Below are positions 51,734-53,397 of a DNA stretch of 64,000 nucleotides, one piece after another. Made by a program: the position numbers and the translations under genes. Location: NCBI RefSeq assembly GCF_002139935.1, contig NZ_CP015578.1, positions 372,001-436,000 on the forward strand, written 5' to 3'. Below the pieces are notes generated by a model, which was not told the origin of the DNA, ran no database searches, and saw only the letters and a program-made list of their open reading frames with translations. Source of the DNA: Campylobacter lanienae NCTC 13004 (lineage in GTDB: Bacteria > Campylobacterota > Campylobacteria > Campylobacterales > Campylobacteraceae). The first letter of the stretch is position 1, and each line of letters opens with the position of its first letter.

Positions 51734-52189
51734 ATGGCAAATAAATATCCTTTTGATGATTTGTTAAGAGATTTTAAACAAGGACTTCGTGAAGCTGGTT
51801 TTAAACCTAAAATATTTTGGATGATTGCCCCATTTGCGATTTTTATACTATTAACAATTCTTGTCAAATATGGAGTTGTTCATCAAAATGTTATACCTTA
51901 TATATTTGCAGTGCCTATGATGTTTGTTCCTCTATTTTTTCATCTTCCAGTTTGGATATTTAAGAAGATTGATGGAATTTGGGATGACATTATTGATGAC
52001 TTAGAAGATAGGTATGAAAAAGAATTTAATGAAAATATTCGTATTACTCGTAAAGTAAAGAAATGGCTTGGAGAGGATAAAATTGATATTATCTATACGA
52101 TTGCTATGGTAAGCGGTATTTTTATATTACTTCTTTGGATAACTATGATTTGTGCTGGATTACCTAGACTTGCGAAAGGTATATTTTAG
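51734..52189 (+). CDS. Hypothetical membrane protein, three predicted helices
   Basis: I do not recognise this 151-residue protein. It has an N-terminal amphipathic cytoplasmic part (YPFDDLLRDFKQGLREAGF), two adjacent membrane helices (about 31-50 and 55-77), a charged loop rich in Asp, Glu and Lys (about 80-115), and a third helix (about 118-140). The gene is 12 nt upstream of the next hypothetical gene, so they are likely co-expressed. It begins the accessory stretch between groEL and the lipid-like operon. Confidence 0.6.
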   Translation: MANKYPFDDLLRDFKQGLREAGFKPKIFWMIAPFAIFILLTILVKYGVVHQNVIPYIFAVPMMFVPLFFHLPVWIFKKIDGIWDDIIDDLEDRYEKEFNENIRITRKVKKWLGEDKIDIIYTIAMVSGIFILLLWITMICAGLPRLAKGIF

Positions 52190-52201: not shown

Positions 52202-52591
52202 ATGAAAGAGTATATATCTGGTTGGGAAGCTTTGAATATCCCAAATGAAAAAGGCTTGGTGGCAGATTGGCATCCACTTTGCTTTTTAAACAATAAAGAT
52301 GATATAAAAAAATATAAATATAATAAAATTCTAGGAAATAAAGGTATAAAAAAACACTTTATACCTATGCTTAATAGAGATGAATATGTAGCTAGTTTCG
52401 CAAGAGCTATTGCTGATTTGGTCTATATGAAAGAATTCACTGGCTTGAAAAACTGCGTTAGAGACTACTTGGATGACGAAGATGAAAAAGAGCTTTTTGG
52501 CTACTTAAAATCTATAAATTTTGATAAAGAAGTCGATGATTTTATGAAATATGAGCTTACAAAGCTTTATTTTGCTGACAAAGAACAATAA
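52202..52591 (+). CDS. Hypothetical cytoplasmic protein
   Basis: A 129-residue soluble protein. It begins KEYISGWEALNIPNEKGLVA with DWHP soon after, a compact aromatic motif. The C-terminal half is helical and acidic (LKNCVRDYLDDEDEKELFGY). I do not recognise the family. Small proteins opening with a GW-ALN-P...DWH pattern can be partners in two-gene accessory modules, but that is an impression only. The stop overlaps a following ATG (TAATG at 52589-52593) that opens a 15-codon frame, which suggests a third, now broken, coupled gene. Confidence 0.55.
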   Translation: MKEYISGWEALNIPNEKGLVADWHPLCFLNNKDDIKKYKYNKILGNKGIKKHFIPMLNRDEYVASFARAIADLVYMKEFTGLKNCVRDYLDDEDEKELFGYLKSINFDKEVDDFMKYELTKLYFADKEQ

Positions 52592-52638: not shown

Positions 52639-52700
52639 GCTAATAAACAAATACAAGATCAACAACGCTAAATTTAAGATAAATTAGAAGTTTATAATGA

Positions 52701-52706
52701 TATAAT
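52701..52706 (+). promoter_or_regulatory. Sense -10 box, copy 1
   Basis: TATAAT, with a second TATAAT 8 nt upstream. Start of the RNA is expected near 52713, just before GGGGATATGCC. The same pair is in copy 2. Confidence 0.55.
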
Positions 52707-52722
52707 CTTGTTATGGGGATAT

Positions 52723-52747
52723 GCCATAGGGCTGGAACCCCTACGGC
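52723..52747 (+). other. 5' hairpin of the copy 1 peptide mRNA
   Basis: GCCATAGGG-CTGGAAC-CCCTACGGC pairs over 9 positions with one A-C mismatch on this strand. On the reverse strand the mismatch becomes a G-U pair, so the antisense RNA folds more stably here. The left arm is also exactly complementary to CCCTATGGC at 52878-52886. Confidence 0.7.
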
Positions 52748-52755
52748 AAATTCTG

Positions 52756-52772
52756 TCTCCATAGAAAGGAGA
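52756..52772 (+). promoter_or_regulatory. Sequestered ribosome binding site, copy 1
   Basis: TCTCC-ATAGAAA-GGAGA forms a 5-bp hairpin that covers the Shine-Dalgarno AAAGGAGA (52765-52772), 8 nt before the TTG start. Such hiding of the site is typical of type I toxin mRNAs. Confidence 0.65.
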
Positions 52773-52780
52773 ATAGTATT

Positions 52781-52846
52781 TTGCTAAATATTGCATACTT
52801 ATGTATAATTATACTACTTTGTATAATTGTTGTCAAGGCTTATTAA
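52781..52846 (+). CDS. 21-residue hydrophobic peptide, putative type I toxin (copy 1)
   Basis: The frame starts at TTG 52781, begins MLNIAYLCIIILL and ends CIIVVKAY. A single hydrophobic helix with one Lys near the C-terminus is the pattern of membrane-acting type I toxins; the size and final Ala-Tyr recall the E. coli Ibs peptides, though I claim no homology. It shares ILLCIIVVKAY with the copy 2 peptide. Evidence for translation is a strong AAAGGAGA site 8 nt upstream and conservation of the C-terminal part in the second copy. Copy 1 uses TTG where copy 2 has ATG, so it may be weaker. Toxicity is inferred. Confidence 0.6.
   Translation: MLNIAYLCIIILLCIIVVKAY
52808..52836 (-). promoter_or_regulatory. 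Consensus reverse promoter inside the peptide frame, copy 1
   Basis: On the minus strand TTGACA (52836-52831), exactly 17 nt, then TATAAT (52813-52808): a full consensus sigma70 promoter. The RNA should start near 52800 and run leftwards across the peptide start, ribosome binding site and 5' hairpin. Confidence 0.8.
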
Positions 52847-52852
52847 GTCTTG

Positions 52853-52868
52853 CCCCACGAAAGTGGGG
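52853..52868 (+). terminator. GC-rich hairpin after the copy 1 peptide
   Basis: CCCCAC-GAAA-GTGGGG, a 6-bp stem closed by a GNRA tetraloop, 6 nt after the stop codon. No U run follows, so it may protect or structure the RNA rather than end it. The same hairpin is in copy 2. Confidence 0.5.
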
Positions 52869-53070
52869 ATGCAATCCCCCTATGGCTTTACACAAAACTT
52901 GGTTTTTTATGATTTTAGATAAAATTTAAATTTGCTACTAAAGATATTTTAAATCAAATCAAAATTTTAATTATCCATAGTAACTTTAATGAAAAAGAGA
53001 CACACGAAAACAACGCTAAATTTAAGATAAATTAGAATGTTATAATGATATAATTTCGTTATGGGGATAT

Positions 53071-53095
53071 GCCATAGGGCTGGAACCCCTACGGC
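53071..53095 (+). other. 5' hairpin of the copy 2 peptide mRNA
   Basis: Same as in copy 1: GCCATAGGG (53071-53079) can pair locally with CCCTACGGC (53087-53095, one mismatch) or, without mismatch, with CCCTATGGC at the 3' end (53221-53229). Confidence 0.7.
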
Positions 53096-53103
53096 AAATT
53101 CTG

Positions 53104-53120
53104 TCTCCATAGAAAGGAGA
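53104..53120 (+). promoter_or_regulatory. Sequestered ribosome binding site, copy 2
   Basis: TCTCC-ATAGAAA-GGAGA again hides AAAGGAGA (53113-53120), 6 nt before the ATG. Confidence 0.65.
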
Positions 53121-53126
53121 GCGGTT

Positions 53127-53189
53127 ATGTTGTATTTTGTATTTACGACAATTATACTACTTTGTATAATTGTTGTCAAGGCTTATTAG
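53127..53189 (+). CDS. 20-residue hydrophobic peptide, putative type I toxin (copy 2)
   Basis: The full peptide is MLYFVFTTIILLCIIVVKAY, starting at ATG 53127 behind AAAGGAGA. It is one hydrophobic span with a single Lys, too short to be a normal membrane protein subunit. Residues 10-20 (ILLCIIVVKAY) match the copy 1 peptide, while residues 3-8 differ. It is the better-supported copy because of the ATG and 6-nt spacing. By analogy with type I toxins (AapA, Ibs, TisB) it may insert in the inner membrane; this is inference from architecture. Confidence 0.65.
   Translation: MLYFVFTTIILLCIIVVKAY
53151..53179 (-). promoter_or_regulatory. Consensus reverse promoter inside the peptide frame, copy 2
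   Basis: On the minus strand TTGACA (53179-53174), 17 nt, TATAAT (53156-53151), identical to copy 1. Start is expected near 53144. Confidence 0.8.
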
Positions 53190-53194
53190 CCTTG

Positions 53195-53210
53195 CCCCAC
53201 GAAAGTGGGG
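53195..53210 (+). terminator. GC-rich hairpin after the copy 2 peptide
   Basis: CCCCAC-GAAA-GTGGGG, as in copy 1, 5 nt after the stop. The next 187 nt to the GNAT gene are AT-rich without a visible gene. Confidence 0.5.
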
Positions 53211-53397
53211 AAATACAACCCCCTATGGCTTTAGACAAAACTTTATCTTTTTAGTATTTTGGATATATGGATTATTACTATAAGATTTTTTAATCAAAAT
53301 AATATAGCATTTAGCTACTTCTAAATTTGCTTTTAATTGCGATTAAATAGCATTTAAAAGCGTAAAAATTATAATATTAATCCCACGCCAATCCCAA

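Follow-up and report, generated by a model that had tools for sequence, protein, structure and literature searches.

Covarying and mutually exclusive mRNA helices in a candidate type I toxin-antitoxin family of Campylobacter and Helicobacter

The window analyzed here, a stretch of 64,000 nt of the Campylobacter lanienae NCTC 13004 genome (1,594,554 bases, one contig), carries two tandem copies of a tiny peptide unit (copy 1, 52712-52889; copy 2, 53060-53232; Table 1). Each copy is probably, at roughly three chances in four, a type I toxin-antitoxin-like unit whose toxin mRNA has two mutually exclusive states. Five helices are distinguished. P1 joins the 5' arm to the 3' end, P2 the anti-SD to the Shine-Dalgarno, P3 the extreme 5' end to the anti-SD arm, P4 the 5' arm to a local partner, and P5 joins codons 2-8 of the ORF to the 3'UTR. 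One arm is common to P1 and P4, and another to P2 and P3. In the closed state, expected for the full-length mRNA with its presumed ends, P1, P5 and P2 would be formed and ribosomes excluded. In the open state, which the nascent or putatively 3'-trimmed RNA would adopt, P4 would provide the local fold, P3 would take the anti-SD arm and the Shine-Dalgarno would be at least partly free. An antisense RNA from within the ORF, covering the 5'UTR, would bind and silence this open form. Comparison of related loci indicates that all five helices covary and that both promoters are conserved.

The two copies are spaced 348 nt apart and are 96% alike across their first 112 nt. Reading of the translations places groES/groEL-like genes upstream of the pair and an acetyltransferase-like ORF downstream; the two ORFs directly upstream (51734-52189 and 52202-52591) have no Pfam match. 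A covariance model search of the same genome found three copies. Copy 3 (L002) lies elsewhere, on the opposite strand, and an ORF that by eye resembles a type II CRISPR Cas9 adjoins it (L002, position 1843 onward).

Table 1. Features of the two tandem copies, in window coordinates
Copy	Feature	Position	Strand	Basis or remark
1	Sense -10 box TATAAT	52701..52706	+	sequence; putative start point ~52712
1	P3 5' arm TATGGGGA, partner 52756-52763 in the proposed open state	52712..52719	+	folding and comparative tests
1	5' arm GCCATAGGG common to P4 (local) and P1 (distal)	52723..52731	+	sequence, RNAalifold, covariation
1	P4 local 3' arm CCCTACGGC	52739..52747	+	a single mismatch with the 5' arm: A.C in the mRNA, G.U in the antisense RNA
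1	P2 hairpin TCTCC-ATAGAAA-GGAGA over the Shine-Dalgarno (TCTCC 52756-52760, GGAGA 52768-52772)	52756..52772	+	sequence and arm-swap tests
1	ORF, TTG start, peptide MLNIAYLCIIILLCIIVVKAY	52781..52846	+	translation
1	P5 5' arm ATTGCAT, inside the ORF	52790..52796	+	arm comparison across loci
1	Antisense promoter TTGACA-N17-TATAAT (candidate antitoxin RNA)	52808..52836	-	promoter scan
1	P5 3' arm ATGCAAT, in the 3'UTR	52869..52875	+	arm comparison across loci
1	P1 distal arm CCCTATGGC	52878..52886	+	exact match to 5' arm; RNAalifold, covariation
2	Sense -10 box TATAAT	53049..53054	+	sequence
2	P3 5' arm TATGGGGA	53060..53067	+	folding
2	Shared 5' arm GCCATAGGG	53071..53079	+	sequence
2	P4 local 3' arm CCCTACGGC	53087..53095	+	sequence
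2	P2 hairpin TCTCC...GGAGA (TCTCC 53104-53108, GGAGA 53116-53120)	53104..53120	+	sequence
2	ORF, ATG start, peptide MLYFVFTTIILLCIIVVKAY	53127..53189	+	translation
2	P5 5' arm GTTGTATTTT	53129..53138	+	arm comparison across loci
2	Antisense promoter TTGACA-N17-TATAAT	53151..53179	-	promoter scan
2	P5 3' arm GAAATACAAC	53210..53219	+	arm comparison across loci
2	P1 distal arm CCCTATGGC	53221..53229	+	sequence

Direct reading of the sequence finds, in both copies and at the same coordinates, the pairings claimed in a sequence-only reading of this DNA, which are those of the 5' arm with its local and distal partners and the hairpin over the Shine-Dalgarno; P3, P5 and the antisense promoter are absent from that reading. 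Compared with 200 dinucleotide shuffles, the folding of copy 1 and copy 2 has z scores of -4.89 and -7.48, respectively, and no shuffle is as good. RNAalifold, applied unprompted to 23 relatives, returned P1 together with a hairpin in the ORF and one in the 3'UTR. This alignment (A1) comprises 23 of the 29 representatives at ≤85% identity and omits L040, L027, L041, L091, L056 and L094-577, whose 3' ends are short or different, an omission that favors P1. Within the alignment, 94.7% of the P1 cells are paired (84.0% when shuffled, 38-53% when slid), and 24 cells show double changes as compared to 5.9 in the shuffles. Double changes occur at five P1 pairs, the richest of which is C-G in 10, U-A in 9 and A-U in 3 relatives. 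P4 covaries too, with 85.9% of its cells paired, below P1. Covariation and the unprompted fold together strongly support a conserved 5'-3' helix P1.

The exchange of arms between loci extends this comparison to all five helices. From 99 core matches and 54 representatives, we set aside L064, L054 and L021 as decayed or outside the family, one match on the opposite strand of the window, six cut-off members, L022 (5' part missing) and L047 and L100 (no start), which leaves 41 loci. Cognate arms scored above the mean of the between-locus swaps in 32 (P1), 34 (P4), 38 (P5), 39 (P2) and 37 (P3) of the 41. In 41 held-out loci, which remained after redundancy removal from 60 picked among the covariance-model matches listed, the corresponding numbers are 31 (P1), 39 (P4), 38 (P5), 32 (P2) and 32 (P3); the model by which these loci were found included P1, and P2-P5 were absent from it. 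The P values of the helix tests ignore the shared ancestry of the loci. P5 shows the clearest co-evolution of the five helices, equally in the held-out loci, and the sequences of its arms vary freely (ATTGCAT/ATGCAAT, GCTTTATCTTAG/TTAAGATAAAGC, CGGAGCTTAA/TTAAGCTCTG). Covariation, arm swaps and the RNAalifold result thus lend comparative support to what the sequence-only reading had proposed in general, namely mutually exclusive helices of the hok/aapA type in which the two RNA ends pair and the Shine-Dalgarno is masked.

The replacement of a first fold by end-to-end pairing, also proposed there, holds for the predictions on copy 1 and fails for those on copy 3. According to equilibrium folding at each length, which is not a kinetic simulation, P3 and P4 dominate the growing RNA of copy 1 at 85-135 nt and leave the Shine-Dalgarno 48-63% unpaired. 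At 145-165 nt, the RNA is predicted to be mostly closed (Shine-Dalgarno 0.02 to 0.28 unpaired), and the 181-nt RNA has P1 and P2 almost complete, P5 formed in part and the Shine-Dalgarno 0% unpaired. Predictions for copy 2 are similar but weaker. For copy 3, which has a perfect local hairpin, P1 is never formed in the prediction and P2 is kept. The further expectation of a clear translational switch upon 3' trimming is not borne out by the predictions, in which the shift in accessibility is small: among the 41 members, the mean accessibility of the Shine-Dalgarno at equilibrium rises from 0.32 to 0.40 without the distal arm (p 0.0017) and to 0.35 without both 3' arms (p 0.16). Copy 1 cut to 145 nt is likewise predicted to be closed (0.02 unpaired). 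P1 reaches a predicted probability above 0.5 in 14 of the 41 members and P5 in 23. The two-state design thus has evolutionary support, but its effect on translation, weak and variable in the predictions, is supported in neither size nor direction.

The idea that an imperfect local and a perfect distal pair are a general feature of the switch amounts to a trend at most. The local pair is worse than the distal one in 15 of 33 loci of the first set (distal worse in 8, equal in 10) and in 13 of 35 held-out loci (distal worse in 8, equal in 14), that is in 28 loci as compared to 16, with 24 equal (p 0.096); the count covers 33 of the first 41 loci and 35 of the 41 held-out loci. Even within the same genome the local mismatch is not fixed, since the local pair of copy 3 is perfect. 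The mismatches themselves show a pattern. True mismatches in the local hairpin of the mRNA are A.C or C.A in 17/20 cases (first set) and 23/27 cases (held-out), and each of these corresponds to G.U in the antisense RNA. The antisense hairpins are predicted to be more stable than those of the mRNA in 32 of 41 loci for P4 and 29 of 41 for P2 (less stable in 9 and 6, respectively), and about 1.5 kcal/mol of this strand difference is also present for perfect hairpins. This hints that the local hairpin may be kept for the antisense RNA and weakened in the mRNA. Transition bias and the relatedness of the loci could contribute to the mismatch pattern, and the predicted strand asymmetry across related loci is suggestive only.

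The encoded peptides are hydrophobic, 20-21 aa long and presumably toxic at the membrane. IILLCII-x-VKAY is conserved at the peptide end in most members, and of the 43 parsed members, 41 combine an in-frame start with a Shine-Dalgarno-like motif, whereas the other 2 lack a usable start with a Shine-Dalgarno. In a further group (L182, L184-L189, L193, L195 and others), the RNA frame is kept and the peptide core is changed, with an end that reads by eye as L-T/M-LCYVKAY; the RNA design hence outlasts the peptide sequence. At E ≤1, Pfam assigns three of the peptides to no family, Hok included, a weak test for sequences this short, and neither NCBIfam nor PADLOC has a match for the peptides. We found no paper on this Campylobacter peptide family in the open literature, subscription papers being largely outside the scope of the search.

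The promoter scan places perfect 12-of-12 sigma-70 promoters on the opposite strand inside both ORFs. The antisense -10 element is TATAAT in 43/43 parsed members, and the -35 element is present in 43/43 as TTGACA (27) or TTGACT (16); the search pattern partly required the -35, and the -10 lies outside the pattern but inside the 32-nt core used alongside. The antisense -10 sits on the Ile codons ATT-ATA, used in 43/43 members, whereas their codon fractions are 0.33 and 0.40 elsewhere (27 long ORFs of the window). On the sense strand, an automatic search for the -10 box returned TATAAT exactly in 40 of the 44 members parsed.

The closest matches elsewhere come from genomes of Campylobacter and Helicobacter as well as from plasmids and phages of Campylobacter. 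A DNA search matched 8 of 16 genomes of the genus (own genome counted), 285 plasmid records (284 Campylobacter, 1 Helicobacter) and 7 phage records. The pattern occurs in 27 of 153 family genomes (reversed control, 0), and a covariance model built on 23 sequences has matches in 57 of the 153, with up to 8 per genome. The pattern scan yielded 40 genome stretches and 35 viral contigs; the genome hosts are Campylobacter, Helicobacter and one contig filed as Treponema. The latter (L032, contig JAGBBT010000074 of a Treponema MAG) is a true, close copy and perhaps reflects a mis-binned Campylobacter contig or a transfer. L054 and L064 were rejected as family members and are chance matches of the pattern scan. 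A tandem arrangement with a spacing of about 310-350 nt, as at 52661-53251 of the window, is seen in several genomes, one of which (G085) has three copies in a row. Across the whole window, no Rfam family matches at gathering scores; three sub-threshold matches of a permissive search are taken as chance.

pTet, a plasmid of the pCC42 type and further plasmids carry the module opposite the start of genes annotated for conjugation. The overlap with their first codons keeps to one frame, and the putative leader encoded on the strand of the conjugation gene precedes a signal-peptide-like stretch. At L025, L026, L133-L137 and others, the module runs antisense and in frame over the N-terminal leader of annotated type IV secretion genes (VirB5-like, TrbM, TrbG, TrbJ or hypothetical proteins), so that transcripts of these genes would be antisense RNAs for the toxin. 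A long opposite frame is found at 21 of 78 distinct core matches, two of which, L054 (not family) and L063 (another frame), are excluded. In L025, L061, L133 and L134, the segment from the toxin core to the signal stretch contains no ATG, GTG or TTG; most other loci have a GTG or TTG there but no ATG. An open frame is in itself no proof of translation. A VirB5-like match occurs in 2542 plasmid records; among the 40 listed, the alignments of the enterobacterial ones begin at residue 64 or beyond, which an added leader would predict. On a Campylobacter fetus plasmid (L136, NZ_CP008812), tandem toxin cores at 924-945 and 1134-1155, 210 bp apart, share one trbJ open frame. An IS607/TnpB element separates the toxin module from the VirB5-like gene on a Campylobacter jejuni plasmid (L203, NZ_CP140348), and H91, considered as a leaderless conjugation gene (empty site), was rejected because an IS607/TnpB element was found between leader and gene. 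We offer only tentatively, as the less likely outcome, that the module is a portable lock-and-addiction cassette. On conjugative plasmids, it would lie codon on codon opposite a candidate leader, some 70 residues long, that is joined in frame to conjugation proteins of unrelated kinds (VirB5-like, TrbJ, TrbM, TrbG). The conjugation mRNA would then also act as antitoxin, loss or silencing of the transfer operon would free the toxin, and the hairpins would be tuned differently per strand (A.C on the toxin mRNA, G.U on the antitoxin). If functional, the overlap would directly tie plasmid-transfer transcription to antitoxin supply.

One rival explanation would do without a trimming switch. End pairing might mainly stabilize the toxin mRNA and hide it from the antisense RNA, with P2 always on and opened by ribosomes or another factor. 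The predictions for the 41 members fit this to a degree, for P2 persists with or without the 3' end and accessibility hardly moves, but P3, which is exclusive with P2, covaries, and aapA3, of like plan, is switched by trimming (PMC6733600), which we count for the two-state explanation; pure stabilization therefore appears unlikely. Less probable still is that the hairpins are maintained chiefly because of the antisense RNA, as kissing hairpins, and that the mRNA structure is a by-product of complementarity. The greater predicted stability of antisense P4 and P2 (32/41 and 29/41) and the prevalence of A.C and C.A mismatches (17/20 and 23/27) speak for such a role. Against it, P1 and P5 covary although an antisense RNA running from the ORF into the 5'UTR would not include the 3'UTR.

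Finally, the repeat could be a functionless, degenerate or mobile-element remnant with complementarity inherited via duplication. The likeness of the tandem copies (96% over 112 nt) and decayed-looking relatives (L021, L022, L056) would suit such an origin, which we nevertheless consider very improbable in view of compensatory changes across divergent loci and the conservation of promoters, ORF and Shine-Dalgarno. The two-state toxin mRNA is the explanation we retain, and the family, which is matched in 57 of 153 related genomes with as many as 8 copies in one, offers a large natural collection in which to examine how a toxin mRNA stays silent during its synthesis, including natural variants such as perfect and mismatched local hairpins.

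The hok/sok system combines 5'-3' pairing, a 5' hairpin, a masked Shine-Dalgarno and an antisense RNA, and the present unit resembles it in all four, the antisense RNA being represented here by a promoter sequence; the Hok peptide differs from the present one in length and kind. Ibs, of the Ibs/Sib system, is not known to have 5'-3' end pairing. It is a 19-aa hydrophobic peptide under the control of an RNA antitoxin (PMC8309996) and is similar to the present unit in its small hydrophobic peptide and, as a candidate here, the RNA antitoxin. CjrA/CjpT of the Campylobacter jejuni plasmid pVir is, like the proposed unit, a type I system in Campylobacter (Shen et al., 2016, as cited in PMC7826846 and PMC10470494). 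Identity with it was rejected: with up to 8 mismatches allowed in 32, the conserved core of the present family does not occur on pVir (NC_005012), and the single site at up to 11 mismatches does not have the conserved peptide motif alongside. In 2017, Arnion et al. reportedly found, by a search for mRNA structure, similar systems in many Helicobacter and Campylobacter genomes; if so, the present family is probably among them.

The closest likeness in plan is to aapA/IsoA. In aapA3 of Helicobacter pylori, the 225-nt full-length mRNA is inert and has a 5'-3' interaction, the mRNA minus its last 35 nt is the translated form, the antisense promoter lies within the ORF, and hairpins of 5'UTR and ORF mask the Shine-Dalgarno during transcription; this folding is reported to be conserved at loci of related species (PMC6733600, the reference list of which also cites coupled covariations in hok mRNAs). 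The present family shares with aapA/IsoA a short peptide, an antisense promoter (TATAAT) in the ORF, an upstream anti-SD and a similar RNA length. Both aapA3-type loci compared (L141 and L142) have the 5'-3' pairing; in the computation on L142, it is the 5' arm that pairs with the 3' end, and the ORF start and the 3'UTR form a P5-like pairing. Unlike aapA, the present peptide ends in VKAY instead of KR, and the 5' end offers the anti-SD arm a second partner (P3); at nascent lengths, P3 is predicted to compete with the covarying, Shine-Dalgarno-masking P2. BLASTP gives no alignment for the one pair compared (copy 2 of the window and the AapA3 peptide of L142), and neither L141 nor L142 is matched by the covariance model (R1) at its aapA3-type place. 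For these two reasons, the family is best described as a relative of aapA in design, by analogy, with membership in aapA not proven. The type of control proposed, a type I system with locked mRNA ends, is already known; it recurs in relatives from Campylobacter and Helicobacter and on plasmids and phages.
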